DNA from: Haloarcula rubripromontorii
GTDB lineage: Archaea; Halobacteriota; Halobacteria; Halobacteriales; Haloarculaceae
Direction: 5' to 3'
NCBI RefSeq assembly: GCF_001280425.1
Contig: NZ_LIUF01000004.1
Coordinates: 352,076-416,075 of the forward strand
Length of the DNA stretch: 64,000 nucleotides
Part shown: in pieces, positions 30,559 to 51,586 of the stretch
Layout: the number at the start of each line of letters is the position of its first letter
Numbering within the stretch: the first letter of the stretch is position 1
Notes under the pieces: generated by a model
What the model was told of the DNA's origin: nothing
Seen by the model: the letters and a program-made list of their open reading frames with translations, nothing else
The model's database searches: none
Translations under genes and position numbers: made by a program

Positions 30559-30794
30559 CTCTACTAACCCTTCCCTGCACCGTCGTAATAATGTTAGTGA
30601 ACCTGACACTACCGGGATAGGATGTGTTCGAGTCGCCGGAGGAAACCACAGAAGCCACATCATGTATCACGGATTACGAGATTGGTTCCCAGACCCGACA
30701 ACAGGGCGACCGCGAGGGGAGGATGTACCACGCGTTATCAGGATAGAGTTACCCTGGCGATACATTAATCAGGCCGCCGGCGACCAGTTATGGT

Positions 30795-33194
30795 ATGGAG
30801 TACCACGAGTCGGCGGACTACTTGCAGTCGTTACAGCGTCGTCGGCCCAAGTTGGGAACCGATACGACGGCGCGGATGCTTTCACATCTCGGTGACCCGG
30901 ACGACAGTTTCGACAGCGTGCAGATCGCCGGGTCGAACGGAAAGGGAAGCACCGCCCGGATGACCGAGAGCGTACTCAGGGCCGCCGGGCTAGATGTCGG
31001 TCTATTCACCTCGCCAGGGTTGAACGGCTTCCGGGAGCAGATCACGGTCAACGGCGGTCGGGTACCGAAAGAGCGAGTGACGGAGTTCGTCGAGCAGATC
31101 AAGCCCTGTATCGACCAACTGGCTGCCGAGGACGACAAGCCGACGCATTTCGAGGTTCTCACCGCGCTAGCGCTCTATCACTTCGATGTCGAGGATGTCG
31201 ATGTCGCGGTGCTGGAAGTCGGCATCGGTGGCCGCTACGATGCCACGAGCGCAGTCGAGCCCGTCGCAAGCGCCGTCACCAGCATCAGTTTAGAACACAC
31301 CGACCTGCTCGGCGACACAGTCGAAGCAATCGCTCGTGACAAGGCGCAGGTCGCGCCGCGGGACGCCCCGCTCGTGACAGGAACGACCGGCGCTGCTCTC
31401 GAGACGATTCAGGGGATTACCGATACGATCACCGTCGGCGACGCCGGGGCCGACGTCACCGCTGTCGAGAACGGCATGCGCTCGGCCGTCGAGAACCGCA
31501 TCTCACTCACTGGGCCGGACTGGGCTCTCGAATCGAATCTTAAGCTACTCGGACAGCATCAAGCAGAGAACGCCGGTGTCGCAGCGACGCTGGCCCGACA
31601 ACTCATCGACGTGGACACGGAAACCGTCTCCGAAGGACTGCGGGCTGCAACCTTACCGGGCCGGTTCGAAATCCGGTCGACTGACCCGATGGTGGTCCTC
31701 GATGGCTCCCACAACCCCGGTGCGATGGAGACGCTGACGACACTCATCGAGCGATACGAGTACGACGACCTCCATGTGGTTTTCGCCGCGATGAACGACA
31801 AGGAGTACGAACGAATGATTGCGACGCTTCCGGCCGTCGAGACGGCCTTTACCGCGCGACCGGAAGTCGACCGAGCCGCGAGCACCGAATCGCTCGCTGC
31901 GGCGTTTGAGGGGCAAGCGACCCGGGTACAGCGGGTCGAGTCCGTTCCAGAAGCCACCGAACGAGCGATAGCCACGGCTGACACGAACGATTTCGTCCTC
32001 GTGGCCGGCTCACTCTACGCAGTTGCCGAAGCACGGGACCGCTGGAGCCGCCTCGTTGTGCCCACAGAGAACCTCCGGCAAGCATCTACGGGCGGAGCTG
32101 ATGGAGTCGGAAGTGAGCCAGAGATTCGCCAGCGAGTACTTTCGGTCACGTTGCGACGCGACCAGGCAGGCGTCGTCAAGCAGACGTTCGAGGACTGCGG
32201 TGGCACCTGCACCCGTTCGACTGTCGGGATGCCGGAGAAGCTCGTCGACACGACACTGTCGGGGACGCCGCGACAGTTCCGACGGCTCACTGACCGACTG
32301 GCCTCGGCGGGACTGGGGCTCGGCAGACTCGCCATGCAACTCGAAGACGCATTGGCTGACAGATCGTTCCCGCCACCGTTCGACACTGATTCGGCAGCCG
32401 TGATGGGGATTCTCAACGTCACGCCGGACAGTTTCTACGACGGTGGCGAGTACAATCGTCGCGACCTCGCTATCAGTCATGCGGAACAGCTGATCGAATC
32501 TGGGGCGGATATCGTCGATATCGGCGGTGAGAGCACGCGCCCCGGGGCCGAACCAGTGACCGTCGAAACAGAGATTGACCGCGTAGTGCCGGTCATCGAG
32601 GCCGTTTCGTCGCTCGATACGACTGTCTCTGTAGATACCCGAAAAGCTGCCGTCGCTGACGCGGCGCTGGATGCCGGGGCCGACATCGTCAACGATGTGT
32701 CGGGACTGTCAGACCCCGAGATGCGGTTCGTGGTTGCCGACCACGACGCGTCCGTCATCCTGATGCATAGTCTGTCCGCGCCAGTGGATCCGGGTCGAAC
32801 TGTAACGTACGACGATGTCGTCGATGACGTGCTTCGAGACCTCACGGAACAGGTACTGCTCGCCGAGCAGGCCGGTATTGACCGCGAGCAGGTTATCATC
32901 GACCCCGGCTGTGGGTTCGGGAAGAACGCCGCCGAATCGTTCGAACTCGTCGACCGTCTCCACGAGTTCCACGCGCTCGGCTGTCCGGTGCTGGTCGGCC
33001 ACTCTCGGAAATCGATGTTTGCAGATATAAGCGACGCAGAAGCGGACAGGCTGCCGCCGACGCTGGCAACAACGGCACTTGCCGCCGAACGCGGAGCGGA
33101 CGCCGTCAGAGTCCACGATGTCTCCGAGAACAACGCCGTCCTCAAGACTGTTTCAGCGACGGCGGCTCGGCCGTCCCAGCTTCGACAACAGTGA
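30795..33194 (+). CDS. folCP: Bifunctional dihydrofolate synthase / dihydropteroate synthase fusion
   Basis: A 799-residue fusion. Residues 1-410 are FolC (Mur-ligase fold) with P-loop IAGSNGKGSTARMTE (about 43-57), FTSPGLNGFREQI and LDGSHNPGAMETL, which adds glutamate to dihydropteroate or folates. Residues about 535-795 are FolP with GILNVTPDSFYDGG, DIGGESTRPGA, DTRKAAVADAAL, DPGCGFGKN and LVGHSRKSMF, which condenses p-aminobenzoate with the pterin diphosphate. Between them lies a segment of about 110 residues with Cys pairs (DCGGTCTRS) not belonging to either domain. The fusion is known in haloarchaea. Folate biosynthesis inside a folate-using region supports the one-carbon theme. Confidence 0.95.
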   Translation: MEYHESADYLQSLQRRRPKLGTDTTARMLSHLGDPDDSFDSVQIAGSNGKGSTARMTESVLRAAGLDVGLFTSPGLNGFREQITVNGGRVPKERVTEFVEQIKPCIDQLAAEDDKPTHFEVLTALALYHFDVEDVDVAVLEVGIGGRYDATSAVEPVASAVTSISLEHTDLLGDTVEAIARDKAQVAPRDAPLVTGTTGAALETIQGITDTITVGDAGADVTAVENGMRSAVENRISLTGPDWALESNLKLLGQHQAENAGVAATLARQLIDVDTETVSEGLRAATLPGRFEIRSTDPMVVLDGSHNPGAMETLTTLIERYEYDDLHVVFAAMNDKEYERMIATLPAVETAFTARPEVDRAASTESLAAAFEGQATRVQRVESVPEATERAIATADTNDFVLVAGSLYAVAEARDRWSRLVVPTENLRQASTGGADGVGSEPEIRQRVLSVTLRRDQAGVVKQTFEDCGGTCTRSTVGMPEKLVDTTLSGTPRQFRRLTDRLASAGLGLGRLAMQLEDALADRSFPPPFDTDSAAVMGILNVTPDSFYDGGEYNRRDLAISHAEQLIESGADIVDIGGESTRPGAEPVTVETEIDRVVPVIEAVSSLDTTVSVDTRKAAVADAALDAGADIVNDVSGLSDPEMRFVVADHDASVILMHSLSAPVDPGRTVTYDDVVDDVLRDLTEQVLLAEQAGIDREQVIIDPGCGFGKNAAESFELVDRLHEFHALGCPVLVGHSRKSMFADISDAEADRLPPTLATTALAAERGADAVRVHDVSENNAVLKTVSATAARPSQLRQQ

Positions 33195-34717: not shown

Positions 34718-36478
34718 TCAGTCGGTCCCCGTCGCAGCGTCGTCGCTCCGTTCGGAGATGTCCGTCACCATCTCGTCGCCAGCAGTCACGATATCCATGT
34801 CGTCCCGTTCGGAGAGGTCCTGGATGGTTTCCGCGAACTCCTCAGACTCGAGTATCTGGTACTCATTGTCGAGCCCCAGATACACCGTGTAACACATCAG
34901 ACACAGGATGAGCGCGAACGGGAGTCCTGTAGTGATTGCGGCCGTCTGGAGCGCCGTCAGGCCGCCACCGATGAGCAGGATGGATGCGACAAGTCCCTCC
35001 GTGAGGGCCCAGAATATCCGTTGCGTTCGCGGAACGTCGTGTTTGCCGCCCGAGGTCAGGTGGTCGATCACCAGCGACCCTGAGTCCGACGACGTGACGA
35101 AGAACGTGATGACCAGCAGGGTCGCGAGCAGTCCGCTGACGACACCGAGCGGGAACTGCTCCAGCAGGGCGAACATCGCGACGGTCTGGCCGACTTCGTT
35201 GTAGGTCGCTAACGCCTGCCCGTTCCCCATGAGCGAATTGAACATCGCGCTCCCACCGAACACCGACAGCCAGAGCGTCGAGAACAGCGACGGAAGGAAC
35301 AGCACGCCCAGGACGAACTCCCGAACGGACCGGCCCTTCGAAATGCGCGCGATGAACATGCCGACGAACGGCGACCACGCGATCCACCAGCCCCAGTAGA
35401 ACACGGTCCAGGCGGTGGGGGTGCCGTTCGCGGCTTCGTTGAGCGTCCCGGTGAAGAACCCGAGCGCAAGGATGTTCCCGAAGTACGCGCCGAGCCCCTC
35501 GACCCACGTCCCGAAGATGTACACCGTGGGACCCACGATAACGAGGAACCCGAGAAGCGCGAACATCAGGTAGAGGTTGAGCGTACTCAGGCGTTTGACC
35601 CCACCGTCGAGCCCTGCCGCAACTGAGAGCGTCGCGATGAGCGTGATACCGGCGATGAGTGCGACCTGCGGCCAGGTCCCCGTCGGGACACTCACCGCAC
35701 CGAGCATGTCCCCGCCAACGTAGGACAGTCCCGTGTTGACCTGCGCAACACCGAGTCCCAGCGAGGTCGACAGCCCGAACAGCGTCGCGAACACCGTCAC
35801 GAGGTCGATGATGTGGCCCGGCCAGCCGTAGATTCGCTCACCAAGGAGGGGCCAGAATATCGACCGGAACGTGAGCGGAAGCCCGCGGTTGAACGAGAAG
35901 AACGCGAGGCCCAGTCCCACCAGTCCGTACACCGCCCACGGGTGAAAGCCCCAGTGGAAGAACGTCTGTGCCATCGCAGCGGCCGCTGCGCCGCCGGTGC
36001 CGGCCTCGGCTCCGAAGAAACTCGGTGGGTTCTGGAAGTAGTACAGCGGTTCCGAGACGCTGAAGAACATGAGTCCGATGCCCATACCGGCGCTGAACAG
36101 CATCGCCATCCAGGAGAAGTCGCTGAACTCCTTCTCGGCCTCGACGCCGCCGATTTTTATTTTACCGTACTTGCTGAACGCAAAGTACAGCAATGTGACG
36201 ATGAACACGTTCACCGCCAGCAGGTAGAACCAGCCGAAGGTGTCCCCGATTGTGTTGAACAACCACGTGTACGCTGAGGCTGCTGTGTCGCCGAGCAGTA
36301 TCGTCACTGCGATAAACAGCGCAATTATCGCCAGTGCCACCGGGAAGACAACTGGATGAATGTCGAATCCAGCCGCCTGGATGTTCGTGTCACCGGGCTC
36401 ACGGTCTGACTCCGGGTGGAACAGCTCTACCTGCAGTCCGTCCGACATATCACCGGTTGGATCGTCACTATCTGCCAT
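34718..36478 (-). CDS. BCCT-family osmolyte transporter
   Basis: A 586-residue betaine/choline/carnitine transporter, normally sodium- or proton-coupled, importing compatible solutes. About 12 hydrophobic helices are present. The glycine stretch SAGMGIGLMFFSVSEPLYYF (about 129-148) and the family signature WTVFYWGWWIAWSPFVGMF followed by IARISKGRSVREFVLG (about 360-395) are clear. The C-terminal cytoplasmic tail is acidic. Substrate cannot be fixed, but nearby dimethylglycine-dehydrogenase-like and DmdA-like genes make glycine betaine or DMSP attractive. An AT-rich box near 36672 may be its promoter. Confidence 0.93.
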   Translation of the reverse strand: MADSDDPTGDMSDGLQVELFHPESDREPGDTNIQAAGFDIHPVVFPVALAIIALFIAVTILLGDTAASAYTWLFNTIGDTFGWFYLLAVNVFIVTLLYFAFSKYGKIKIGGVEAEKEFSDFSWMAMLFSAGMGIGLMFFSVSEPLYYFQNPPSFFGAEAGTGGAAAAAMAQTFFHWGFHPWAVYGLVGLGLAFFSFNRGLPLTFRSIFWPLLGERIYGWPGHIIDLVTVFATLFGLSTSLGLGVAQVNTGLSYVGGDMLGAVSVPTGTWPQVALIAGITLIATLSVAAGLDGGVKRLSTLNLYLMFALLGFLVIVGPTVYIFGTWVEGLGAYFGNILALGFFTGTLNEAANGTPTAWTVFYWGWWIAWSPFVGMFIARISKGRSVREFVLGVLFLPSLFSTLWLSVFGGSAMFNSLMGNGQALATYNEVGQTVAMFALLEQFPLGVVSGLLATLLVITFFVTSSDSGSLVIDHLTSGGKHDVPRTQRIFWALTEGLVASILLIGGGLTALQTAAITTGLPFALILCLMCYTVYLGLDNEYQILESEEFAETIQDLSERDDMDIVTAGDEMVTDISERSDDAATGTD

Positions 36479-37591: not shown

Positions 37592-38854
37592 TTACAGTGC
37601 GCCGTTCTGGGCCTTGCGTGCGACGTTGTCGACAGGATAGCCTGCGTCACGAATCGCTGTGATGATGGTTTGTGCGTGCTCGGCACCACTCGTCTCGACG
37701 TTGAACACGAGGTAGGCCTCCCCGATTTCGAGATTCTCGACGGACCGTTCGTGTCTGACATCGTGGATATTGGCACCCTGTCTGGCGATGACACCGGATA
37801 TTTCTTCCATCACGCCCGGCTGATCGTTGATGCGGACCCGGAGCTGCAGGAGCTGTTGGCGCTCTGTGAGCGCGTGGATGAGAACCTCACGCATCTGTGT
37901 CATGTCGAGGTTCCCACCACAGAGTAGCGGCATCACTGTCTCCCCAGACACGTCGAGGCCGTCGCTCAGCACAGCGGCCACGGAGGCGGCCCCGGCACCT
38001 TCGACGACCTGTTTGGCCCGTTCCATCAGCAGGAGAATCGCCTGTGCAATATCGGTGTCCGAAACCGTCACGACCTCGTCGACGTTCGCCTCGATAATGC
38101 CAAGCGTCGTCTCCGAGATACCGCCGGTGGCGATACCGTCGGCGATTGTGTCGACCTCGTCAAGCACGACCGGAATCCCCTTGTCGAGGCTCTCGTGGAC
38201 GGTCTCCGCACCGGTCGCCTGAACGCCGACGACGCGCGTTTCGGGCGAGAGATGTTTGATAGCAGTTGAGACACCGCTGATGAGACCGCCGCCGCCGATG
38301 GGAACGACGACCGTGTCGACATCGGGGCAGTCGTGGTACATCTCCGTGCCGAGGGTCCCCTGTCCGGCGATGATGTCCAGGTCGTCGTAGGCGTGGACGA
38401 ACGCGGCATCGGTCTCCTCGACGGCGGCCTGGGCGTGGGACATCGTCTCCTGGAAGTCGTTGCCGACCAGTTCGACGCTCGCGCCGTAGCCTCTTGTGGC
38501 ATCGATCTTCGCCTGTGGTGCGTTCTCCGGCATGAAAATAGTCGCCTCCGCCCCGCACTTCGTCGCGGCGAGGGCGACGCCCTGCGCGTGGTTGCCAGCG
38601 CTGGCGGCGACGAATGACTCCACGCCGTCGGCGACATCCTGTGAGATTTTGTTGTACGCGCCTCTGGTTTTAAACGAGCCAGTCCACTGGAGGTGTTCCA
38701 TCTTCAGGTGTACCTCAGCATCGACAAACCCGCCGAGGGACGTACTCCGCTCGACCGGCGTCTTTTTCACGACTGTGTCGTCGTCCAGTCGTTCGCGGGC
38801 TCGTTCGATGTCTGCGTACGTGACGGGCAGCGTGTCCGATTCTGTTTGTGTCAT
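37592..38854 (-). CDS. ilvA: Threonine ammonia-lyase with ACT domain
   Basis: A 420-residue PLP enzyme converting threonine to 2-oxobutanoate and ammonia, for isoleucine synthesis or threonine breakdown. The PLP Lys lies in WTGSFKTRGAYNKI (about residue 62); ASAGNHAQGVA and PIGGGGLISG bind the cofactor. Residues about 325-405 form an ACT domain (VRINDQPGVMEEISGVIARQGANI), typical of the short catabolic/allosteric form. It lies 49 bp downstream of the flavoprotein gene on the same strand, so may be co-transcribed. Confidence 0.93.
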   Translation of the reverse strand: MTQTESDTLPVTYADIERARERLDDDTVVKKTPVERSTSLGGFVDAEVHLKMEHLQWTGSFKTRGAYNKISQDVADGVESFVAASAGNHAQGVALAATKCGAEATIFMPENAPQAKIDATRGYGASVELVGNDFQETMSHAQAAVEETDAAFVHAYDDLDIIAGQGTLGTEMYHDCPDVDTVVVPIGGGGLISGVSTAIKHLSPETRVVGVQATGAETVHESLDKGIPVVLDEVDTIADGIATGGISETTLGIIEANVDEVVTVSDTDIAQAILLLMERAKQVVEGAGAASVAAVLSDGLDVSGETVMPLLCGGNLDMTQMREVLIHALTERQQLLQLRVRINDQPGVMEEISGVIARQGANIHDVRHERSVENLEIGEAYLVFNVETSGAEHAQTIITAIRDAGYPVDNVARKAQNGAL

Positions 38855-38903: not shown

Positions 38904-41456
38904 CTATCTGATGATTCGCTCTCGGGCCGGATCGAACAGCGGTTCGTCACGCACCGTCGCGTCGTATGTCTCGCCCTCGCACTGTATCTGAACCGACGTG
39001 CCGGCTTCGGCGTGTTCGGTCGGGACGTACGTGTACGCGATCGACTCGTCGATGCTGTAGCCGTAGTTCCCGGCCTGCACGTAGCCGAGTGCCTCGCCGT
39101 CTTTCAGAACTGGTCGGCCGCTCAGCATGATATCTGTCGAGTCGTCCAGCGTCACCGGCGTGATTTTGCTGTCGATACCCGCCTCGCGTGCGGTTTCCAG
39201 CGCCGCCTTGCCGATGAACTCGGTGTCCATGTCGACGGCGAAGGGCAGCCCGGCCTCGAAGGGGTTCGAGTCCGTGTCGATGTCCGTCCCCCAGAGGCGG
39301 TAGCCTTTCTCTAATCGCATGGAACCGAGCGCGCCGCCGCCCATCGGCCGGACGCCGAGGTCCTGGCCGGCCTCCCACAGCGTCTCCCAGAGGCGCTGGC
39401 CGTACTCCGTCGGAGCCCACAGCTCCCAGCCGAGTTCGCCGACGTAGGAGACCCGCAACGCGATGACCGGCACGTCGCCGACGTACATCCGCTTGGCCCG
39501 GAAGTACGGGAAGCCATCGTTGGTCACGTCGGCGTCGGTACACCGCTGGAGGAGGAGCCGGGCGTTCGGGCCCCAGAGACCGATTGTCGATTTCGCCCCT
39601 TCCTCGACGTGGACCGACACCGTCTCGGGGGCGTGGTCCTCCAGCCAGCCGCCGTGGATGCCGGGCGAGTTGCCGCCGCCGGTCGTCACCATGTACTCCT
39701 CGTCGTCGAGTTTGACGACAGTGATGTCCGCGAGAATCCCGCCGCCGTCGTTCAGCAGCAGGGAGTAGCGGACCTGCCCGGTGTCGATGTCCATGTCGTT
39801 GCTACAGACCCGCTGGAGGAACGCCCCGCTGCCATCGCCCTCGACCATAATCGAGGAGAACGTCGACATGTCGAACATCGACACCTTCTCGCGGGTGTGG
39901 AGGTGTTCGGCGGCCTCGATTTTCGAGCGGTTGATTCCCTGCCAGCCGTCCTGGTTGGGAATCCGGTCCTCGTACTTCGCTACCAGGTCGGCGTTTGACT
40001 CGTAGTACTGTGGCGTCTCCCAGCCGCCGCTCTGGTAGAACTCCGCGCCGAGTTCTTTCTGTTGGTGGTAGAACGGGCTCGTCCGGAGTCCCCGGTGGTC
40101 GTCGGGCTGCCACCGCGGCTCGACGATGCTGTACACCTGCTCGTAGCGCTTGGCCCCGCGGTCGACGAAGTAGTCCTTCTCGCCGGCGTGGGGCTCGAAC
40201 CGCCGGACGTGGATGCCGCCGGTGTCGACCGGGCCCGAGGGCAGTCGCGGAACGCCGTTTTCCATCCACTCCGCGAGGATGCGGCCGTACCCACCGGAGT
40301 GAGTCCACCAGATGGCCAGCCCCGTCCAGAGGCCGTCGACCTGCGCCGTCTCGCCGACGGCGGGCATCCCGTCGGGCGTGAACACGAAGATGCCGTTCTC
40401 GGTGGCCTCGTACTCTACGTCCTGAGTCGCCGGGAGCAGTTCGTCGAAGGCCTGCTTGGCTGACTTGTCCCGCCCGCGGTGGGTCGGCGTCTCCCAGTGT
40501 TCTTTCGTGAACCCTCTGACCGAAGCCTGGTGTTCCTCGGTGTTTTTCCCCATCGCTTCGGGGTCGACCGAGAGCGTCTCGTGGTTGTACGACCCCATCC
40601 CGAGCGCGTCGCCGTGGGTCCGGAAGTACAGCGAGTGGTCCTGGTCGCGGCCGACGGGCTGGTGTGGCCCCTCGCTCATGTACTCCGCGATAGAGCGGTC
40701 CCCAGGAACATCGAGGCCGGTCGTGTTGTCCCCGACAGAGGTCTCGGCGTCGGCGAGTTCGTCCATCGGTTCGGTGACGACGTACTGGTGTTCGACCGGT
40801 GCAATCGGCAGGTCCAGCCCGGCGAGTTGGCCGGTCTGGTAGCCCCAGTTGTTGGTTGCGATGACCGCTCGCTCGCAGTCGATTCGCCCCTTGTCTGTCT
40901 CGACGGCGGTGATTTCACCGCCCGACACATCCAGATCCGTGACCTCCGTGTTCCCGTAGAACGACGCCGAGGAGTGTTCCATGTACCACTGGAGCGCGGC
41001 GATGCCGTCGACGCGGCCGTCGGTCGGCGAGTAGTAGCCGCCAAGAATCTCGTCCTCGTCGACCAGCGGGAGGTGTTCGGTGACCTCTTCGGGCGAGAGC
41101 AGTTGTGGCTCGGGCAGTCCGTAAGAGGTGGCCCACTCGACGCGCCGCCGGAGGAAGTCCATCCGCTCCTCGCTCCGGGCCACCTCGATGCCACCGACCT
41201 CGTCGTAGACACCGGCGTCGGAGAGTAATCGGCTGGTGTAGTGTGCCGTCTTCGTCTGTATCTTCGACGGCGATGTCTGGAACATGATGCCGGGTGCGTG
41301 GACCGACGACCCGCCGGTGACCGGAAGCGGCCCCTGGTCGATGACGACAACATCCTCCGCGCCGAGTTCCGTCAGGTGATACGCGACGCTACACCCGACG
41401 GCCCCGGCACCGATAACGACTGTATCCGCCCGAGACGGGGGAGTCTCTGTGCTCAT
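38904..41456 (-). CDS. Dimethylglycine/sarcosine dehydrogenase-like flavoprotein with GcvT domains (copy A)
   Basis: An 850-residue fusion. The N-terminal FAD-dependent oxidoreductase domain shows VIGAGAVGCSVAYHL (about 15-29) and SSVHAPGIMFQ with His53 where related dehydrogenases carry covalent FAD. A central FAD-oxidase middle domain is followed from about residue 470 by a GcvT-type THF-binding domain and C-terminal barrel (GYVQAGNYGYSIDESIAYTYV). Such enzymes oxidatively remove an N-methyl group and transfer it to THF as 5,10-methylene-THF. A close paralog lies just upstream (41673-44243). A TATTTAAG box about 30 bp upstream marks a separate promoter. Exact amine is unknown. Confidence 0.9.
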   Translation of the reverse strand: MSTETPPSRADTVVIGAGAVGCSVAYHLTELGAEDVVVIDQGPLPVTGGSSVHAPGIMFQTSPSKIQTKTAHYTSRLLSDAGVYDEVGGIEVARSEERMDFLRRRVEWATSYGLPEPQLLSPEEVTEHLPLVDEDEILGGYYSPTDGRVDGIAALQWYMEHSSASFYGNTEVTDLDVSGGEITAVETDKGRIDCERAVIATNNWGYQTGQLAGLDLPIAPVEHQYVVTEPMDELADAETSVGDNTTGLDVPGDRSIAEYMSEGPHQPVGRDQDHSLYFRTHGDALGMGSYNHETLSVDPEAMGKNTEEHQASVRGFTKEHWETPTHRGRDKSAKQAFDELLPATQDVEYEATENGIFVFTPDGMPAVGETAQVDGLWTGLAIWWTHSGGYGRILAEWMENGVPRLPSGPVDTGGIHVRRFEPHAGEKDYFVDRGAKRYEQVYSIVEPRWQPDDHRGLRTSPFYHQQKELGAEFYQSGGWETPQYYESNADLVAKYEDRIPNQDGWQGINRSKIEAAEHLHTREKVSMFDMSTFSSIMVEGDGSGAFLQRVCSNDMDIDTGQVRYSLLLNDGGGILADITVVKLDDEEYMVTTGGGNSPGIHGGWLEDHAPETVSVHVEEGAKSTIGLWGPNARLLLQRCTDADVTNDGFPYFRAKRMYVGDVPVIALRVSYVGELGWELWAPTEYGQRLWETLWEAGQDLGVRPMGGGALGSMRLEKGYRLWGTDIDTDSNPFEAGLPFAVDMDTEFIGKAALETAREAGIDSKITPVTLDDSTDIMLSGRPVLKDGEALGYVQAGNYGYSIDESIAYTYVPTEHAEAGTSVQIQCEGETYDATVRDEPLFDPARERIIR

Positions 41457-41672: not shown

Positions 41673-44243
41673 TCAGACGAGCGGTTCCTCGCGGACCGTC
41701 GCGTCGTAGCGCTCGCCCTCGTAGAGGATTTCGACGGTGGTGCCGGGTTCGGCGTACTCCGGCGGCAGGTACGTGTAAGCGACGCAGGCCCCGACGGTGT
41801 AGCCGTACTCGGCGCTGTGGAGATAGCCGATAGTCTCGTCGCCGTCAAGCACTGGCTTGTTGTCCAGCACCACGGCGTCCTCGTCGTCCAGCGTCAAGCA
41901 CGCAACTTTGTGGTCGATGTTGTCGCCGTCGGCGGCCGCCGCGACCGCCTCCTTGCCGATGAAGTCGGTTTCGAGGTCGACGGCCCAGCCGAGGCCGGCC
42001 TCGTAGGGGTTGTGTTCTGTGTGGAGGTCCTTCCCCCAGAGGCGGAACCCCTTCTCGATTCGCAGGGAGTCGAGCGCGCCGCTGCCGTACGGGCGGATGC
42101 CGTACTCCTCGCCGGCCTCCAAGATGTGCTCCCAGAGGCGCTCGCCGTACTCCGAGGGCGTGTAGAACTCCCAGCCGAGTTCGCCCGCGTAGGAGACACG
42201 GAGCGCGGTCACGGGCACGTTCTTCACGAAGAACTGCTGGCTCGTGAAAAACGGGAAGGCGTCGTCCGACAGGTCGACGTCGGTGACCTTCGACAGGACC
42301 TTCCGGGCGTTCGGGCCGGTACAGACCATCGCCGCCAGACTGGAGGTCACGTCGTTGACGACCACGTCGTCGGGGGATTGCTCGCGCACCCACGCGACGT
42401 GGTTGTTCCCGACCTCGCGGCCGGTCGTCAACAGGAGGTAGCGGTCCTCGTCGGTCCGCGTGACCGTGATGTCAGCCCGGACGCCGCCGCCCTCGTTGCA
42501 CATCAGCGTGTACTTCACGTCGCCCACGTCGATGTCCATGTCGTTCGTACAGAGGTACTGGACGAACTCGCCGGCGTCGCTCCCGATGACCTCCATCTTG
42601 TTGAAGGGGGTCATGTCGTGGAGGCCGACGTTGTTGCGGACGTTCAGCGCCTCGGCACCCTCGATTGGCGACCAGTACTTTGCCTCCCAGCCCTCGCGGT
42701 CGGGAATCCGGTCGCCGTACTCCGCCAGCAGGTCGGCGTTGGAGTCGAACCAGTGTGGTTCCTCCCAGCCCGCCTCGGCCCACAGTTCGGCGTCGTACTC
42801 CTTGTGGGTGTGGTACATCGGGGTCCGGCGGATGTCCCGCTGTTTGTCGGTCCAGACCCACTTGGGGTGCATGATGTTGTAGACGATGCGGTACTCCTCG
42901 CCGCCGATGTCCCGGGCGAAGTCCCAACTGCCCTCGTGGTCGTCGAAGCGGTTCACGTCACAGTGTGCGAGGTCAATCGGACCGGACGGGAGCCGCGGGA
43001 CGCCGTGTTCCATCCACTCGGCGAGGGCCTTCCCGGCCCCGCCGGCGTGGGTGACCCAGATGGCCGCAGCGGTCCAGAGGCCGTCGTACTCCTGGACCGG
43101 CCCCATCACGGGGAGGCCATTGGGCGACTCCGCGAACATGCCGTTGTACTTGTGTTCGAGTTCCTTGCCGGCCGTCGCCGGGATGAGTTCGTCGCTGGCC
43201 TGGCGCGGGGCCTTGTCCGGCCGGTCCGGGTGGGTCGCGTTGTCCATGTGGTAGTCGGTGAACTCGTGGACCGACCCCTGTTCGCCGTCAGGATCGTTGC
43301 CGCCCAGTCCCTGCGGGTCGGGCACGATTGGCTCGTGGTTGTACGAGCCGATGCCGTAGGAATCTCCATGGTTCCGGTAGTACATCGCGTTGTCCTGGTC
43401 GCGGAGAATCGGCCGGTCCGGACCCACGAGGAGCCGTTTCGCCTTCTCCCCGGAGACGTTCTCGTAGTTCTCGAACAGCGGGTGGTCGGTGATGTCGACC
43501 GCGCTGTCGGCCAGTTCGTCGAGCGATTCCGTCATTGTGTACTGGTGTTCGACCGGCGTCACCGGCAGGTGGACGCCGAGCTTCTCGCCGAGTTGCCGGG
43601 CCCAGATGTTCGTCGCCACGACCACCTCGTTGCACTCGATGGTACCGTTCTCGGTGACGACGGCCCGCACCGAGCCGTTCTCGGTTTCCACGTCCTCGGT
43701 GCGCGTGTGCGGAACGAACTTCGCACCCCGGTCCATCGCTTCCCGGGCCAGCGCGTCACACGCGACGACGCCCGAGACTTGCCCGTCCGTTGGGGAGTAG
43801 TAGCCACCCTTGATCTGGTCGGCGTCGACCAGCGGGAGGTGGTCGGTGACTTCCTCTGGGGAGAGCAACTGCGGGTCTTCGATGCCCCAGGCCTTTGCGT
43901 ACTCGACGCGGCGCTGGAGGAAGTCCATGCGCTCCTCGCTCCGGGCCACCTCGATGCCACCTGTTTCGTTGTAGGCCTGGTGTCCGTCAGCCCCTTCGAG
44001 GTCCGAATACAGCCGACGGCTGTAATCCGCAAACTGGCTGAGGGTCTTCGGTTCCGCGGTCTGGAACATGATTCCGGGGGCGTGTGTCGACGATCCACCC
44101 GTAGTCGGCATCGGCCCCTGGTCGACCACGACCACGTCTTCGCGGCCGAGTTCTGTCAGCTGGTAAGCGACGTTACAGCCGACGATTCCAGCACCGACGA
44201 TGACGGTATCGGCCTGGGTCGGCAGGCTATCGGTAGGCTCCAT
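41673..44243 (-). CDS. Dimethylglycine/sarcosine dehydrogenase-like flavoprotein with GcvT domains (copy B)
   Basis: An 856-residue paralog of copy A with the same layout: FAD domain (VIVGAGIVGCNVAYQL, about 14-29; SSTHAPGIMFQ with His54), middle domain, GcvT domain and C-terminal barrel. Shared runs such as GGIEVARSEERMDFL show a tandem duplication followed by divergence, notably in the FAD-domain substrate-side regions. It should also demethylate a methylated glycine with transfer to THF. The two copies may handle successive steps (dimethylglycine then sarcosine) or different amines. About 216 bp separates it from copy A, enough for independent promoters. Confidence 0.9.
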   Translation of the reverse strand: MEPTDSLPTQADTVIVGAGIVGCNVAYQLTELGREDVVVVDQGPMPTTGGSSTHAPGIMFQTAEPKTLSQFADYSRRLYSDLEGADGHQAYNETGGIEVARSEERMDFLQRRVEYAKAWGIEDPQLLSPEEVTDHLPLVDADQIKGGYYSPTDGQVSGVVACDALAREAMDRGAKFVPHTRTEDVETENGSVRAVVTENGTIECNEVVVATNIWARQLGEKLGVHLPVTPVEHQYTMTESLDELADSAVDITDHPLFENYENVSGEKAKRLLVGPDRPILRDQDNAMYYRNHGDSYGIGSYNHEPIVPDPQGLGGNDPDGEQGSVHEFTDYHMDNATHPDRPDKAPRQASDELIPATAGKELEHKYNGMFAESPNGLPVMGPVQEYDGLWTAAAIWVTHAGGAGKALAEWMEHGVPRLPSGPIDLAHCDVNRFDDHEGSWDFARDIGGEEYRIVYNIMHPKWVWTDKQRDIRRTPMYHTHKEYDAELWAEAGWEEPHWFDSNADLLAEYGDRIPDREGWEAKYWSPIEGAEALNVRNNVGLHDMTPFNKMEVIGSDAGEFVQYLCTNDMDIDVGDVKYTLMCNEGGGVRADITVTRTDEDRYLLLTTGREVGNNHVAWVREQSPDDVVVNDVTSSLAAMVCTGPNARKVLSKVTDVDLSDDAFPFFTSQQFFVKNVPVTALRVSYAGELGWEFYTPSEYGERLWEHILEAGEEYGIRPYGSGALDSLRIEKGFRLWGKDLHTEHNPYEAGLGWAVDLETDFIGKEAVAAAADGDNIDHKVACLTLDDEDAVVLDNKPVLDGDETIGYLHSAEYGYTVGACVAYTYLPPEYAEPGTTVEILYEGERYDATVREEPLV

Positions 44244-44611
44244 GACTCTGGGTAAAACGTGCTATGGCGTGGCAATATAGTTACCGCCTGATCCATCTCC
44301 TTTGCAAAATAAAGCCGAATTGTCACGTAGTGTTTCAGAATAACAGGAGTACCATTGTTAATAGATTTGGGTCCCCTGTGGTGATTGTCGCCGCTGTGTA
44401 GGAACTCCAAGTCACGCCTAACAGACAGATTGTATTGTCACCTTATGTATTCATACCCCAGCAGAATGTGTCCCCAACGGTGATTTCACACCATCGATGG
44501 CAGCGTCTCAGCCAGCGGTTCTGTCCCGAAAGAGAATCACAGCACCGCGCTATGTGACCCGGTGCAACGCCCACTCCCAGCGTTTTTGTCCGCGCGCCGC
44601 CGGCCTTGGGT
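44244..44611. other. Divergent intergenic region
   Basis: About 370 bp between copy B and the deacylase gene. A minus-strand ACTATATT box near 44275 may be the copy B promoter and a TTTTT stretch at 44583-44587 lies about 27 bp before the rightward ATG. No gene or repeat recognised. Confidence 0.4.
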
Positions 44612-45568
44612 ATGGACTACGCGCCCGTCACGCACACGACGACGGACCGACAGCTCGGACGATTGCCGTCAGGGCGAGACGTGTCTGTGACTGTCCACCG
44701 GTACGTCGGCGGCTCCGGGCCGACTGTGTACATTCAGGCGGCGCAACACGGCATCGAACTCAACGGTCCAGCCGCGTTGCGGCGGCTCCACGACCGCCTG
44801 ACTGACGCGGCCATCGCTGGGCGAGTGGTCGTCGTCCCGGTGGTGAACCAGCTTGCGTTCGACCACCGGTCGTACATGACTCCCGGTGAGTACGACGTGA
44901 TGAACCCGAACCTGAACCGCGTGTGGCCGGGCAACGAATGCGGAAGCTTACAGGAGCAGTTCGCCGCTCGGCTGTGGGAACTCGTAGAAGACGCCGACGC
45001 GGCCGTCGACCTCCACACCGGGACGGCAGATATGCTGGAACACGTCCGGTGTCGGGCAGGCGATCCGGCCGCCGAGCGCCTCGCCGAAGCGTTTGGCACG
45101 TCATACAGGCTCACCGACGCAGCAGAGGACACAGATGACGACGGGTCCGGCAGGACGTTCCGAGCGGCGGCTGCGGCAGCCGGGATTCCGGTTATCACTG
45201 CAGAACTATCGAACAGTCGTCGGATCGCACAGGACGCGGTTGCAGCGGGTGTCGACGGGATGCAGAATCTTCTACGCGAACGTGACGTTCTCCCCGAAGA
45301 ACCCGAATCAAAAGCGACACAAACGGTACTCCGAAACGATGCGGAGCCAGTCACCGCGTCGAAATCGGGGCTGTTCGAATCTCGGCCGGACATCACTGTC
45401 GGCAATACCGTCGACGCCGGGGAGCGACTGGGAACTATATACGAACCAGCCTCCTTCGAGCAACAACAGGTCGTTTCAGCGACAGAACGAGGAGTGGTAT
45501 TCTCGATTGCCAGGGAGTCCGTCGTCGTGAAGGGGGAGCGGCTCGCGGGCATCGCGATACCGGGATAG
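44612..45568 (+). CDS. AstE/AspA-family zinc deacylase
   Basis: A 318-residue M14-type zinc hydrolase of the succinylglutamate desuccinylase/aspartoacylase family. Zinc ligands are visible in QAAQHGIELNGPAAL (His and Glu, about 47-51) and VDLHTG (His, about 134). NPNLNRVWPG is the substrate-site Arg region. It removes an acyl group from an acylated amino acid or amine. In this setting it might release an osmolyte from an acylated form such as N-acetyl or ectoine-type derivatives, but that is inference. Start at the ATG 44612; a TTG two codons earlier is less likely. Confidence 0.87.
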   Translation: MDYAPVTHTTTDRQLGRLPSGRDVSVTVHRYVGGSGPTVYIQAAQHGIELNGPAALRRLHDRLTDAAIAGRVVVVPVVNQLAFDHRSYMTPGEYDVMNPNLNRVWPGNECGSLQEQFAARLWELVEDADAAVDLHTGTADMLEHVRCRAGDPAAERLAEAFGTSYRLTDAAEDTDDDGSGRTFRAAAAAAGIPVITAELSNSRRIAQDAVAAGVDGMQNLLRERDVLPEEPESKATQTVLRNDAEPVTASKSGLFESRPDITVGNTVDAGERLGTIYEPASFEQQQVVSATERGVVFSIARESVVVKGERLAGIAIPG

Positions 45569-45706: not shown

Positions 45707-46906
45707 ATGGGACTCCACACCGCCTTCACGGCGCTCGCGGAAGTTATCGATGCGTACGAATCCCGCGGTCGGTCCATTGAGACCGTCGAAGCATCGCCTG
45801 CCGACACCGGTGGTGCAGTCCTCGATGTGACGGTGGCAATGCCGGTCTCGCTGCGTTCCGGTGGCGGCGCTGATGAGAGCCTCACGCCGGAGACGGCGAG
45901 GCTGACCGAGAGTGGTGACCTCGAAGTCACGTTCTCACCACCGGCTCCCGAACTCCCGTCGACTTCCGGTGTCGCGCTGTCGGTATGCGACGCTTCGGCG
46001 ACGGTCACCGACGATGGCTTACTCCTGACGGTTCATCTAACGATCGACGCCACAGATGCACCAGACGGGGCAGCCAGCGCCGACTGCGGGCCTGACCGGG
46101 CTGGCTCCAGCGACACAGCGACCACCACATCGCGTTCGGCCGGGCCCGTCGAGGGTGACGGTGGCCCGGTCGATGGGTCGGCCGCCTCGGCTGCAGAGTC
46201 TACCAACGGCGGAGACAGCGGTTCACAGGAAAACTCACAGTCAGGCGACGCATCTACGGCGGATGCGCAGTCTGATCGCGACACCGACTCTGAATCCGAC
46301 TCATACGCCGCCGTCCGCGACGACTCTGTGCCACCGTACGAGGACACGGACTACCTGCAAGCACTGTACGACGGATGCGACAACTTCAGAGAAATCGCCG
46401 AGAAAATACAGATGGACGTGTCCTCCGAGACAGTCCGACGGTACATGATAGAAGCGGACATCCACGTCCCGAACACGTACGACACGTCCAGTGACGACGA
46501 GGAAGAACCGTCGACCGAATCAGATGCCCCGGACGAGGGCGCGAATCAGTCCGGTGCTGTGGATGCGGACGAAACGGTCGCTGTGGTCGAGCCTGTCTCG
46601 GCAGAGTCGTCCGGCCCCGCCGACGAGCCGGTCGGAGAACTCCCCGACGAACAACTGGTCACCGACGGGATCGGACTCCCGGCTGATGTCCAGTTACAAG
46701 ACATCGCGGACGCGGTCGTCGAGTCGGACACGGTCTACGAGGTCCAGCGCCGCCTAGACCTCGACCGGGGCCGGACCCGGGATCTGCTCGAAGAGCTCAA
46801 TCTGTTGGACCTCGTCCTGTGCCGGCTCACGGACGAACCGGACCAAGCCGTCTCCTACGAGACTGTGGCAGGTCGAATCCGGCAGTGTACGCCACATTGC
46901 GCGTGA
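45707..46906 (+). CDS. Helix-turn-helix protein, probable transcription regulator
   Basis: A 399-residue protein. An N-terminal globular domain (about 1-120, with DVTVAMPVSLRSGG) is followed by a long acidic Ser/Thr/Gly linker. Then comes a helix-turn-helix-like segment (DYLQALYDGCDNFREIAEKI followed by SSETVRRYMIEADI, about 220-255), a second acidic linker and a C-terminal HTH-like segment (DIADAVVESDTVYEVQRRL, about 338-356). No named family recognised. Its promoter shares a 15 bp element with the next gene, so it may control itself and the reductase gene. A related role in gene regulation is inferred from the HTHs only. Confidence 0.65.
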   Translation: MGLHTAFTALAEVIDAYESRGRSIETVEASPADTGGAVLDVTVAMPVSLRSGGGADESLTPETARLTESGDLEVTFSPPAPELPSTSGVALSVCDASATVTDDGLLLTVHLTIDATDAPDGAASADCGPDRAGSSDTATTTSRSAGPVEGDGGPVDGSAASAAESTNGGDSGSQENSQSGDASTADAQSDRDTDSESDSYAAVRDDSVPPYEDTDYLQALYDGCDNFREIAEKIQMDVSSETVRRYMIEADIHVPNTYDTSSDDEEEPSTESDAPDEGANQSGAVDADETVAVVEPVSAESSGPADEPVGELPDEQLVTDGIGLPADVQLQDIADAVVESDTVYEVQRRLDLDRGRTRDLLEELNLLDLVLCRLTDEPDQAVSYETVAGRIRQCTPHCA

Positions 46907-46984: not shown

Positions 46985-47845
46985 ATGGCCCTCGGAACTC
47001 GCGCAGTCTCAAACAGTCAGGGTGTCCAGACGCTGCTGACGAGCGCCCGGTTCGAACTGATGCCGTTCGAGAGCTTCGACGAGGAAATCACTCACCTTCC
47101 CGACGACGCGACGATCGCAATTACGACCTCGCCACAGCTCGGTATCGAGAAGACCGTCGAAAAGACGGAGCAAGCCGCTGCAATGGGGTACGATGTCGTG
47201 CCACATGTCGCAGCCCGCTACGTGGAAGACCGGGCGCAACTCGAAGCTATAGCCGAGCGACTGGACCAGGCAGGCATCACTGACATCTTCGTCCCTGGCG
47301 GTGACCGCGAGGAACCGGCCGGTGAATACGAGTCAGCCCTCGATATGCTCGAAGCACTCGCAGAGACCGAGTACTCCTTTGAGGAAGTCGGTATCACGGG
47401 CTACCCCGAGGGCCACGACTTCATCGACGACGAGACGCTGGCGGAGTCGATGGCACAGAAAGCACCATATGCGACGTACATCGTCACGCAACTCTGTTAC
47501 GACCCGGATGCCGTGTTAGAGTGGGTCGAAGAGATCCGTGGTCGCGGTATCGAACTCCCTGTCGAAGTTGGCATCCCGGGGGTAATGAACTACCAGCGAC
47601 TGATGCAGATCTCCCAGAAAGTCGGCGTCGGTGACTCGATCAAGTTCCTCAGAAAGACCACGGGGATTCTCGGCTTCGTCAAGCAACTGGTCGGTTCTCG
47701 CGGGACCTACGAACCAGACGAACTCATCGACGGTCTCGCCCCATACGTCGGGGACGACGAATACAACATCCGCGGCGTCCACATCTACACCTTCAATCAG
47801 ACGCCCGACACGGAGAAATGGCGGCACAAGCGTCTCGACTCCTGA
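46985..47845 (+). CDS. Methylenetetrahydrofolate reductase family protein
   Basis: A 286-residue TIM-barrel protein of the MTHFR family: TIAITTSPQLGIEKT, the barrel strand VVPHVAARYVEDRAQL (about 75-90), DIFVPGGDREEPAG (about 99-112), GYPEGHDFI (about 136-144) and ITQLCYD-like IVTQLCYDPDAV (about 163-174). The family interconverts 5,10-methylene-THF and 5-methyl-THF using FAD and a reduced cofactor. Beside a DmdA-like gene the direction may be oxidative, recovering methyl-THF made by demethylation. The sequence is divergent from bacterial MetF, so partner and electron donor are open. Own promoter matches that of the HTH gene. Confidence 0.85.
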   Translation: MALGTRAVSNSQGVQTLLTSARFELMPFESFDEEITHLPDDATIAITTSPQLGIEKTVEKTEQAAAMGYDVVPHVAARYVEDRAQLEAIAERLDQAGITDIFVPGGDREEPAGEYESALDMLEALAETEYSFEEVGITGYPEGHDFIDDETLAESMAQKAPYATYIVTQLCYDPDAVLEWVEEIRGRGIELPVEVGIPGVMNYQRLMQISQKVGVGDSIKFLRKTTGILGFVKQLVGSRGTYEPDELIDGLAPYVGDDEYNIRGVHIYTFNQTPDTEKWRHKRLDS

Positions 47846-48142: not shown

Positions 48143-49519
48143 TTAGTCGTCGCTTTCGGCTTCTTTGCGGGCGTTGAGCTTCGCCTGCTCACGGGCGCTG
48201 GGATTGACCGACTCCTTGAACGGGACCTTCGCGGCGGTGGCAAACACCGGTTCGCCGGGTTCCTCTGCGTACTCGTCTGGGAGATGAACCTGGAACTCCA
48301 GGTCCAGTTCCTCGTCGTAGATCTCGTCGTTAAGCGGCGTGTCTGTGACTTCCTGAATCTTCTCGGCCGGGACGAACCCCATCCCGATGTTGGTTTCCAG
48401 GTCCGGGTTCCACCACGGGGACGTGAGGTAGCCGCACTCCTCACCCGTGTCCGGATCAGAGATAAGCCAGAAGTCGGGGGCGTAGTCGCGGATAGGCTCA
48501 CCGGCGATCTTCAGGCCGATGAGTTTGTGCTGGAACGGGTAGTTACCGTTCTCGATCTGTTCTTTCTGTTCTTCGAGCACCTCTTTCCCGATGTAGTCGG
48601 CTTCCTTGTCGTCGGGAACGTGGTAGCCGAGGTTGACCTGGAACGGGGAGGTCTCGTGGTCGAGGTCCTGACCCCAGGACATGATGCCGGCAGCGATCCG
48701 GCGGTGGTGTCCCGGCGCGATCTGGCGACCACCGTGGTCTTTGACGGACGCCATAACTGGGTCCCATACCTTCTCGGCGTTTTCCATCGCGTCCTTGACG
48801 TAGATCTCGAAGCCTTCCTCGCCGGAGAAGCCGGTCTGGCTGATCAGTACGTCACAGCCGTCGATCTCGGCCTCCATCAGACCGTAGTACGGCACGTCTT
48901 TGACCTTGTCACCGACGACGTCGACCATCACGTCAAGCGCCCTCGGGCCCTGGATCTGCATCGGGGCGACGTCGATCTCGTCGATCTCAACGTCGAAGTC
49001 GTTGTCGACGTTGACGCCCTGCAGCCACTGCATAAGCGTCGAGTCGGAGATGGAGAACCAGAACTCGTCTTCTTCGGGGCGCAGGAGGACGGGGTCGTTG
49101 AGGACGCCGCCGTCTTCGTTGCAGAGGATGACGTACTTCCCGTCCATGGCGTCCATTCCTGTTACGTCGCGGGTGACGACGTAGTTCGTCAGCGCCTCGG
49201 CGTCAGGCCCTTTGACACGAATCTGGCGCTCTACGGCAACGTCCCAGAGGGTGACGGTGTTGGTCAGTGCGTCGTACTCCTTCATCACGCCGCCATCCTC
49301 GGGTTCGATGAGGCCGCGTGGGTGATAGAGGCGGTTGTAGACGGTTGCCCGCCAGGCACCCTCTTCATTGAATGACTTGTGGAAGAACGGGGACTTTCGA
49401 ACGCGCGTCGACACCAACATCTCGATGTTGGGGTCACCAGTCTGGCGGAGGTTACGGGGGACGGTCCGGTCTGACTGGTCGACACTGGGATGATTAGGAT
49501 GTTCCTCGTTACCGGTCAT
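48143..49519 (-). CDS. DmdA-like GcvT-family THF-dependent demethylase
   Basis: A 458-residue GcvT-fold protein without an oxidoreductase half. The N-terminal run STRVRKSPFFHKSF (about 37-50), TVYNRLYHP, LWDVAVERQIRVKG (about 92-105), NEDGGVLNDPVLLRP and FWFSISDSTLMQWL resemble DMSP demethylase DmdA as I know it, more than the glycine-cleavage T protein. Such enzymes transfer a methyl group from a sulfonium (DMSP) or similar donor to THF, giving 5-methyl-THF. An acidic extra segment near the C-terminus (about 395-430) is not in bacterial DmdA. The MTHFR-family gene is its neighbour. Other methyl donors cannot be excluded. A CTTTTATTA box lies about 30-35 bp upstream. Confidence 0.82.
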   Translation of the reverse strand: MTGNEEHPNHPSVDQSDRTVPRNLRQTGDPNIEMLVSTRVRKSPFFHKSFNEEGAWRATVYNRLYHPRGLIEPEDGGVMKEYDALTNTVTLWDVAVERQIRVKGPDAEALTNYVVTRDVTGMDAMDGKYVILCNEDGGVLNDPVLLRPEEDEFWFSISDSTLMQWLQGVNVDNDFDVEIDEIDVAPMQIQGPRALDVMVDVVGDKVKDVPYYGLMEAEIDGCDVLISQTGFSGEEGFEIYVKDAMENAEKVWDPVMASVKDHGGRQIAPGHHRRIAAGIMSWGQDLDHETSPFQVNLGYHVPDDKEADYIGKEVLEEQKEQIENGNYPFQHKLIGLKIAGEPIRDYAPDFWLISDPDTGEECGYLTSPWWNPDLETNIGMGFVPAEKIQEVTDTPLNDEIYDEELDLEFQVHLPDEYAEEPGEPVFATAAKVPFKESVNPSAREQAKLNARKEAESDD

Positions 49520-49746: not shown

Positions 49747-50244
49747 TCATTGCGAGCAACTGCTTGTTCGAGTGTAGCTCACGATAGCGAACTCGCTGTG
49801 TGCCGTTCGGTCTGTCTCAGTCCAGCACGACCAGTCGACTGTCGGGAAGACTGTATCGCCGTCGTAAGATGCTGCTAATTCGGTCAGAATTAGCTCGTCG
49901 GCCCGTGGGAGAAACTGTTCGTACACTGTCGCTCCACCGATGACATACGTCGTAGATGCACCACTGTCGGCCGCTGCTGACAGCGCCGCCGTCGTCGAGG
50001 TAACGGCCGTAACACTGTCGGGAAGGCGATTCGGTGTCGTGGTCAAAACGATGTTCAGTCGCTTCGGTAGCGGGCCATCAAGATCACGCTGAATACTCTC
50101 GAAGGTTCGCCGCCCCATAATCACGGGATGACCGACTGTTGTCTGCTTGAAATGTGTCAGGTCTTCGGGATACTGCCACGGAACGTCGCCGTCAGCACCG
50201 ATCACCCCGTTAGCTGCGACGGCAGCGATCAACGAGACTTTCAT
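49747..50244 (-). CDS. folA: Dihydrofolate reductase
   Basis: A 165-residue DHFR reducing dihydrofolate to THF with NADPH. Motifs are complete: [28 protein letters not shown] (the runs AANGVIG and VPW-x-PEDL), [11 protein letters not shown] (about 42-52), and the NADPH loop [14 protein letters not shown] (about 94-107). Asp/Glu of the active site is in PEDL (about Glu27). It completes the local set of folate genes with folCP. The C-terminus ends a little raggedly (TRTSSCSQ) but length is normal. Confidence 0.95.
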
Positions 50245-50932: not shown

Positions 50933-51586
50933 TCACTTCTCTCGGTCTATTATCGTCGCCGCGATGAGGTTCCGCATCCCACGGCGGAGTCTGCCGCTCA
51001 TTGCTGTCGAGGATAGCCCGATTTCGTCGGCAACTTCGTTCAAAGATATGTCTCTGGGTTCTCCGAAATAGCCGTTTTCGTACGCAGTCGTCAGAGCGGT
51101 CCGCTGTTCATCAGTCAATCCGTACGACGATTCGCCACCGGTGTCCGTGTTTCCGTATATTTCGATTATATCGAGGGAGATATCGTTCTCGTTTGCATAT
51201 TCCCAGATCGTATTGAGCGCTTCGCGGTCAGGAAGCAGGAGTCGGACGAGCCACCCGTTGCCCTTCGTTTCTGTATGAACGAGAAAGCCGTTGACATCGG
51301 TAACGACAGAGCTGATAAGTTTCGTTTCAGGGGTGTGTTCGATGTAGTATATGCCGGTCTGGTCGGTCCAGTCGACAAGGTCGTAACTCTGGACTGTCGG
51401 GTCGGCATCGAGCATCTCCTCGAGTCGTTCCCTGTCGTGGTACTCGACGAGGAACGGAAACACAGTGGATCCCGGGTCGGTGTTCCCCTGCGTAATAACG
51501 CGGATGGTTATCTCTCCGAGGTTCTGTAAGGTTGGAACCAGCGCGAGGCGTTCGTGTTGGATGTGTATTTTAGTCGTTATCGACAT
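50933..51586 (-). CDS. Bat-type HTH_10 transcription regulator
   Basis: A 217-residue regulator of the haloarchaeal bacterio-opsin-activator type. Residues 1-155 form the sensor-like bacterioopsin-activator domain; residues about 160-215 are the HTH_10 domain with GLTDEQRTALTTAYENGYF followed by ISLNEVADEIGLSSTAMSGRLRRG. The DNA-binding helix is the SSTAMSGRLRRGM part. The effector is unknown. It lies alone between a small membrane gene and an AT-rich gap, so its targets may be distant; the nitrilase/MFS pair is the nearest same-strand candidate. Confidence 0.88.
   Translation of the reverse strand: MSITTKIHIQHERLALVPTLQNLGEITIRVITQGNTDPGSTVFPFLVEYHDRERLEEMLDADPTVQSYDLVDWTDQTGIYYIEHTPETKLISSVVTDVNGFLVHTETKGNGWLVRLLLPDREALNTIWEYANENDISLDIIEIYGNTDTGGESSYGLTDEQRTALTTAYENGYFGEPRDISLNEVADEIGLSSTAMSGRLRRGMRNLIAATIIDREK

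Follow-up and report, generated by a model that had tools for sequence, protein, structure and literature searches.

A predicted glycine betaine:THF methyltransferase of the DmdA superclade in Haloarcula rubripromontorii

A gene of the haloarchaeon Haloarcula rubripromontorii, located at positions 48143–49519 on the minus strand of the 64,000-nucleotide stretch of DNA analyzed here (the window), most likely encodes a glycine betaine:THF methyltransferase of the DmdA superclade that would catalyze the first step of betaine catabolism. We infer the substrate and give this reading a probability of about three in four. The proposed protein would be a stand-alone, redox-neutral enzyme that converts glycine betaine and THF to dimethylglycine and 5-methyl-THF by direct methyl transfer, initiating aerobic betaine catabolism without cobalamin, homocysteine or O2.

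In saline waters and soils, glycine betaine is one of the major osmolytes. Three betaine demethylation routes have been named, which are GbcAB, BHMT and the corrinoid MtgBC system (PMC12478193). Betaine use by haloarchaea was proposed from the presence of dimethylglycine oxidase near BCCT genes, with no first enzyme (Anderson et al. 2011, PMC3102087); the same source states that Haloquadratum walsbyi grew no better with betaine and that Halorhabdus utahensis was not supported by it, which counts against the present reading. Arthrobacter sp. Rue61a grows on betaine, and its pathway was marked as incomplete with the first enzyme missing (PMC3534580). The protein described here is a concrete candidate for this missing step in both the haloarchaeal and the Arthrobacter pathways. 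The dmg operon of Arthrobacter was reportedly described by Meskys et al. in 2001. No description of a DmdA-type betaine:THF methyltransferase was found in the literature searched, whose scope excluded most subscription journals, so that priority is not proven.

The ORF listing of the window gives a product of 458 aa with an ATG start. A first-pass annotation of this DNA had placed a DmdA-like DMSP demethylase homolog here; its exact coordinates hold, the minus strand was not part of it, and the motifs it quoted (VRKSPFFHKSF, TVYNRLYHP, LWDVAVERQIRVKG and NEDGGVLNDPVLL) are all found in the ORF. Overall, the gene it pointed to is real, and both the superclade and the partner gene (MTHFR) were chosen correctly, whereas the substrate it assumed, DMSP, is most likely wrong. 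The protein belongs to the AMT/GCV_T superfamily (PF01571, 147.2 bits compared with a gathering cut-off of 25.6), and relatives were detected in 77 loci of the genome contigs searched, nearly all from Halobacteria and with 73–98% identity; given this match and these relatives, the ORF is not a chance one. Orthologs in genomes of the same genus are 96–98% identical, among them HAH_RS18290 of H. hispanica with 98%, and the region matches replicon pHH400 (406 kb) of that species.

An acidic insert near the C-terminus, also reported earlier, is real and spans approximately residues 389–406. It varies in length and is absent from some haloarchaeal orthologs (L065 and L067) and from an Agrococcus homolog, and was therefore dropped as a functional feature; given this variability, it appears to be a surface insertion of the usual haloarchaeal kind. 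A second haloarchaeal paralog with 67–70% identity was observed at L087:9001-10362, in L031 (9.8 kb) and in genomes G030, G048, G075, G094, G125, G129, G134 and G157. It is in tandem with the first copy in G129/L031, has NDF in place of NDP in L087, and possibly acts on a different substrate. In addition, the fifth GCV_T protein of the genome in locus L005 (G000:C1:674704-675408) may be read as YgfZ/IBA57-like and has a KGCYVGQE motif.

The partner genes of the window described below fall within about 22 kb of the methyltransferase gene. Convergent with it is a gene for an MTHFR-like protein (46985–47845, plus strand, 286 aa; PF02219, 51.8 bits), which confirms the MTHFR-family neighbor noted previously; the genome has no other PF02219 gene. 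Two genes on the minus strand encode FAD+GcvT proteins that are closest to Arthrobacter dimethylglycine oxidase: DMGDH1, a dimethylglycine oxidase/dehydrogenase-like protein (38904–41456, 850 aa; best PDB match 1pj5, 593 bits), and DMGDH2, a second dimethylglycine/sarcosine dehydrogenase-like protein (41673–44243, 856 aa). They are accompanied by an IlvA-type threonine/serine ammonia-lyase (37592–38854, minus strand; TIGR01127, 434 bits, above the cut-off of 379) and by a BCCT transporter predicted to take up glycine betaine (34718–36478, minus strand; PF02028, 595 bits), whose best NCBIfam match is betaine_BCCT at 514 bits, under the cut-off of 650.

Folate-related genes include an FchA-like methenyl-THF cyclohydrolase (28228–28812, plus strand; NF045657, 102 bits, under the cut-off of 275), the formate-THF ligase Fhs (28813–30663, minus strand; 797 bits, above the cut-off of 652), a FolC-FolP fusion of folate biosynthesis (30795–33194, plus strand) and an HdrA-like dihydrofolate reductase (49747–50244, minus strand). 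The genome has a separate GcvT gene and two FolD genes, one of which shares the contig with the methyltransferase gene at a distance of about 21 kb. A Bat-type HTH_10 regulator (50933–51586, minus strand), whose ortholog is close to methyltransferase orthologs in 26 of 58 loci, possibly controls the cluster. An AstE/aspartoacylase-like hydrolase (44606–45568) and an unannotated protein of 399 aa (45707–46906) adjoin the MTHFR gene in many haloarchaea. H. hispanica has an additional third dimethylglycine-oxidase-like protein, which occurs with ETF alpha and beta.

Searches of the window's genome for MttB (PF06253), S-methyl_trans/BHMT (PF02574) and Ring_hydroxyl_A (PF00848) gave no matches. Because the genome has betaine uptake and dimethylglycine oxidation and none of these known routes, an enzyme for the conversion of betaine to dimethylglycine is needed, and the methyltransferase is a candidate for it. 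In the pathway that we propose, flux would continue from dimethylglycine and sarcosine to glycine and methylene-THF through the neighboring FAD+GcvT enzymes, and from glycine to serine and pyruvate, with IlvA predicted to carry out the last step. The MTHFR-like protein is predicted to work in the oxidative direction, re-oxidizing 5-methyl-THF to methylene-THF, from which FolD and FchA would produce formyl-THF and Fhs would yield formate and ATP.

A genomic link of this protein family to betaine uptake and dimethylglycine oxidation was found well outside the window. Among 58 haloarchaeal loci with enough flanking sequence, MTHFR is located within 8 kb of the methyltransferase ortholog in 50, despite varying order and strand, and at least two of MTHFR, DMGDH, IlvA and BCCT are nearby in 42. 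The methyltransferase and MTHFR genes are on one strand and less than 200 bp apart in 11 of these loci. DMGDH lies within 8 kb in just 23 of the 58, and for a fair share of the loci it is found at another place in the genome. A similar context was observed in actinobacteria. In an Agrococcus MAG, the gene next to a homolog with 59% identity begins 20 bp further on and encodes an Arthrobacter-type dimethylglycine oxidase (457 bits to 1pj5). Fourteen further actinobacterial loci carry homologs with about 40% identity, and in 13 of them a gene for a dimethylglycine or sarcosine oxidase lies no more than about 9 kb away, mostly together with MTHFR, Fhs and ETF. The genes recurrently appear in the order methyltransferase, MTHFR, Fhs, dimethylglycine-oxidase-like protein, ETF beta and ETF alpha, in which the dimethylglycine-oxidase-like protein is about 55% identical to the third copy of H. 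hispanica; other loci have sarcosine oxidase subunits instead. L125 is the exception and is similar to a type found in alphaproteobacteria, in which enoyl-CoA hydratase and acyl-CoA synthetase are the neighbors.

Near-perfect co-occurrence was observed in one even set of 174 Halobacteria genomes, each at least 90% complete, in which the methyltransferase was counted as present at 60% identity or more. The methyltransferase was found in 36 genomes, the dimethylglycine oxidase type PF16350 in 51, Ring_hydroxyl_A in 31 and MTHFR in 37. PF16350 is present in all 36 methyltransferase carriers (Fisher's test, P = 1.3e-25; 4e-9 at the genus level), and so is MTHFR, which occurs elsewhere only in G057 (1.5e-36; 5e-13 at the genus level); since genomes are not independent, the values by genus are safer to rely on. 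Fourteen further carriers checked genome by genome all contain PF16350. The suggestion of the first-pass annotation that an MTHFR could take up the methyl-THF product is supported, strongly though indirectly, by this 36/36 co-occurrence.

The remaining 15 PF16350-containing genomes lack the methyltransferase, and in 14 of them a Rieske oxygenase gene is located 3–7 kb from the PF16350 gene. None of the 15 has MTHFR, which is expected if a Rieske route gives formaldehyde rather than methyl-THF. In L127, where the order is Rieske, IclR, DMGDH, IlvA, BCCT and SHMT, the cluster is equivalent to that of the window with the methyltransferase replaced by the Rieske gene. GbcA is the closest NCBIfam model of this Rieske protein (135 bits, under the cut-off), and CntA is its closest match in PDB. 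The replacement is not strictly exclusive because a PF00848 gene is also present somewhere in the genome in 12 methyltransferase carriers. Both the strict co-occurrence with MTHFR and the lack of MTHFR in Rieske genomes argue for methyl-THF, rather than methylene-THF, as the predicted product.

GbcA/CntA-related haloarchaeal Rieske oxygenases occur in betaine-type clusters (L127:6375-16109 and 14 genomes), and Haloferax volcanii, which has both PF00848 and PF16350, is a candidate model for this alternative route. G053 is the sole genome with DMGDH and neither the methyltransferase nor a Rieske gene; its DMGDH is found with a monomeric sarcosine/methyltryptophan-oxidase-like gene and a Liv-type ABC transporter (L126:6492-14350).

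Based on these distributions, haloarchaea and actinobacteria probably have a fourth route of betaine demethylation, which would be corrinoid-free, O2-independent and direct to THF. It would consist of a module of methyltransferase, MTHFR, Fhs, dimethylglycine/sarcosine oxidases and ETF, and in haloarchaea be replaced by a Rieske monooxygenase with loss of MTHFR. GbcAB (Rieske), BHMT and the corrinoid MtgB/MtgC also turn betaine into dimethylglycine, as predicted here for the methyltransferase, but they belong to unrelated families with different chemistry.

A much less probable substrate is another quaternary amine, such as carnitine, choline or proline betaine, which would be demethylated to THF; the dimethylglycine enzymes would then act in a separate reaction or further along. 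Several onium compounds are carried by BCCT transporters, the Rieske proteins that replace the methyltransferase match CntA (carnitine) best in PDB, and a related alphaproteobacterial clade with acyl-CoA enzymes and OsmC implies that the superclade has several substrates. However, the partners that stay constant in archaea and actinobacteria alike are dimethylglycine/sarcosine oxidases, no carnitine-, choline- or proline-betaine-specific gene was seen in the cluster, and the most direct precursor of dimethylglycine is betaine. We therefore consider a different amine unlikely.

Family placement was analyzed with an alignment of the protein and its haloarchaeal, Agrococcus, actinobacterial and alphaproteobacterial homologs, together with DmdA, GcvT and DMGDH C-termini. 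DmdA (NF009133) is the top NCBIfam match at 246.5 bits, below the equivalog cut-off of 410, and among solved structures the nearest in sequence is Pelagibacter ubique DmdA (3tfh, 4.7e-43). Scores of two GcvT models (155 and 142 bits, with cut-offs of 300 and 236) and of the LigM and DesA O-demethylase models (43.7 and 53.6 bits, with cut-offs of 580 and 800) are also under their cut-offs; the latter two are so far below that a LigM-like reading was rejected. In the maximum-likelihood tree, the DmdA superclade, including the protein of the window, is split from GcvT/DMGDH at 100/100. Within the superclade this protein groups with Agrococcus (100/100) and then with actinobacterial proteins (95/95), whereas the DmdA core forms a separate clade (100/100) that does not include it. 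Constraining the haloarchaeal set with GcvT was rejected (p-AU 7e-5), and constraining it as one clade with DmdA was rejected more weakly (p-AU 0.033). The tree places the protein neither with GcvT nor inside the DmdA clade, and the view of it as a DmdA-type THF methyltransferase homolog distinct from GcvT stands.

Motif comparison gave a similar picture. RxSP(F/Y), YN...P, WDV(A/G)ERQ, NDP and FWxS(I/L)(S/A)D are common to this protein, DmdA and the homologs from actinobacteria and alphaproteobacteria; the haloarchaeal sequence has WDVAVERQ, NDP and FWxSIxDS of the DmdA type and agrees with DmdA at the NDP, WDV-ERQ and E204/Y206 positions. On the other hand, the loop SG[YW]SKQGG[FY]E, present in all DmdA compared, is replaced by TGFSGEEGFE in the protein of the window, and a Glu of DmdA (LIERIE) corresponds to Arg in this protein and the actinobacterial ones (HRRIA, IRRIE). 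SKQ is present in 4/4 DmdA compared and also in L088 and L092. An aromatic residue of this loop, named W171, has been considered DMSP specific (Hernandez et al., PMC7487153), and by our own mapping it should correspond to W197 of 3tfh. As a marker on its own it was dropped, since three plasmid (Roseobacter) DmdA have Tyr there; judged from the alignment, the SKQGG loop appears to be a better marker of DMSP use than this aromatic residue alone.

An archaeal DmdA that converts DMSP to methylmercaptopropionate and 5-methyl-THF, as originally assumed, would be consistent with DmdA topping both the NCBIfam and the PDB sequence matches and with the shared NDP and ERQ motifs, and a side activity is plausible because DMSP and betaine are similar zwitterions. 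But the score is well short of the DmdA cut-off (246/410 bits), the protein lies outside the DmdA clade, with a single clade disfavored at p-AU 0.033, and the SKQGG loop is replaced. The gene partners point away from DMSP as well: none of dmdB, dmdC, dmdD and acuI is annotated near the gene on pHH400 of H. hispanica or was found in scans of the window, where the cluster is one of betaine, dimethylglycine and C1 oxidation, and every carrier genome examined also has DMGO-like enzymes. DMSP demethylation was therefore rejected as unlikely, its probability being slightly lower than that of another quaternary amine. Surveys of DMSP demethylation should leave out DmdA-like matches that fall outside the DmdA clade. 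A GcvT-like protein that makes methylene-THF, in glycine cleavage or as an accessory to dimethylglycine/sarcosine oxidation, is very improbable and was rejected: it would fit the common fold and superfamily and the resemblance of the TGFSGE loop to TGYTGE of GcvT, but the grouping fails the AU test (p = 7e-5), the DVSHMG and DD motifs of the GcvT signature (FDVSHMG and DDL) are absent, a separate GcvT exists in the genome, and the strict co-occurrence with MTHFR favors methyl-THF.

The AlphaFold model is of moderate quality (pLDDT 65, pTM 0.51). A VIA-align fold search with it placed 3tfh first (Z 21.1, 308 residues, rmsd 10.0), tied with GcvT (Z 20.8). Around the presumed substrate site (231–233 and 271–311) the loops are poorly modeled, so that binding residues cannot be placed, and the model may be taken to support the fold only and no residue-level claims.

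The predicted betaine:THF methyltransferase can be compared with several characterized systems. DmdA (P. ubique 3tfh and Roseobacter DmdA) resembles it in superclade, fold, stand-alone domain and the NDP and WDV-ERQ motifs, and redox-neutral methyl transfer to THF is presumably common to both; the chemistry of DmdA with DMSP (PMC5395565) is a model for such direct transfer. They differ in that identity is only about 29–31%, the haloarchaeal protein lies outside the DmdA clade and lacks the SKQGG loop, its gene partners are different and its predicted methyl donor is an N-methyl compound. GcvT has the same fold and THF-binding superfamily (PF01571), but a separate clade, other motifs and a different predicted product (methylene-THF). 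LigM/DesA with their MetF partner carry out THF-dependent demethylation, after which the methyl group is oxidized via the folate C1 pathway, as we propose here, although they are distant fold relatives (43.7 bits compared with a cut-off of 580).

Uncharacterized actinobacterial and alphaproteobacterial DmdA-like aminomethyltransferases, annotated with a GCV_T_C domain and having MTHFR, Fhs, PurU and FolD as partners, probably form one wider family with the haloarchaeal protein; no assigned substrate for them was found in the literature searched. A DmdA-related gene of SAR11 (SAR11_1265) adjoins metF, and another role has been guessed for it (Sun et al. 2011, PMC3160333); this and similar alphaproteobacterial chromosomal relatives are outside our tree set. 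Plasmids of Phaeobacter and Loktanella (L084:8407-13159 and L085:8322-13121), and also L125, have a cassette of Lrp, methyltransferase, OsmC, enoyl-CoA hydratase and acyl-CoA synthetase with a DmdA-like gene, which perhaps represents another sulfonium or onium acid pathway. A Lichenihabitans plasmid (L086:7660-12227) carries a block of MTHFR, DmdA-like, PurU and FolD genes beside an amino acid ABC transporter, which is a compact methyl-THF oxidation module.
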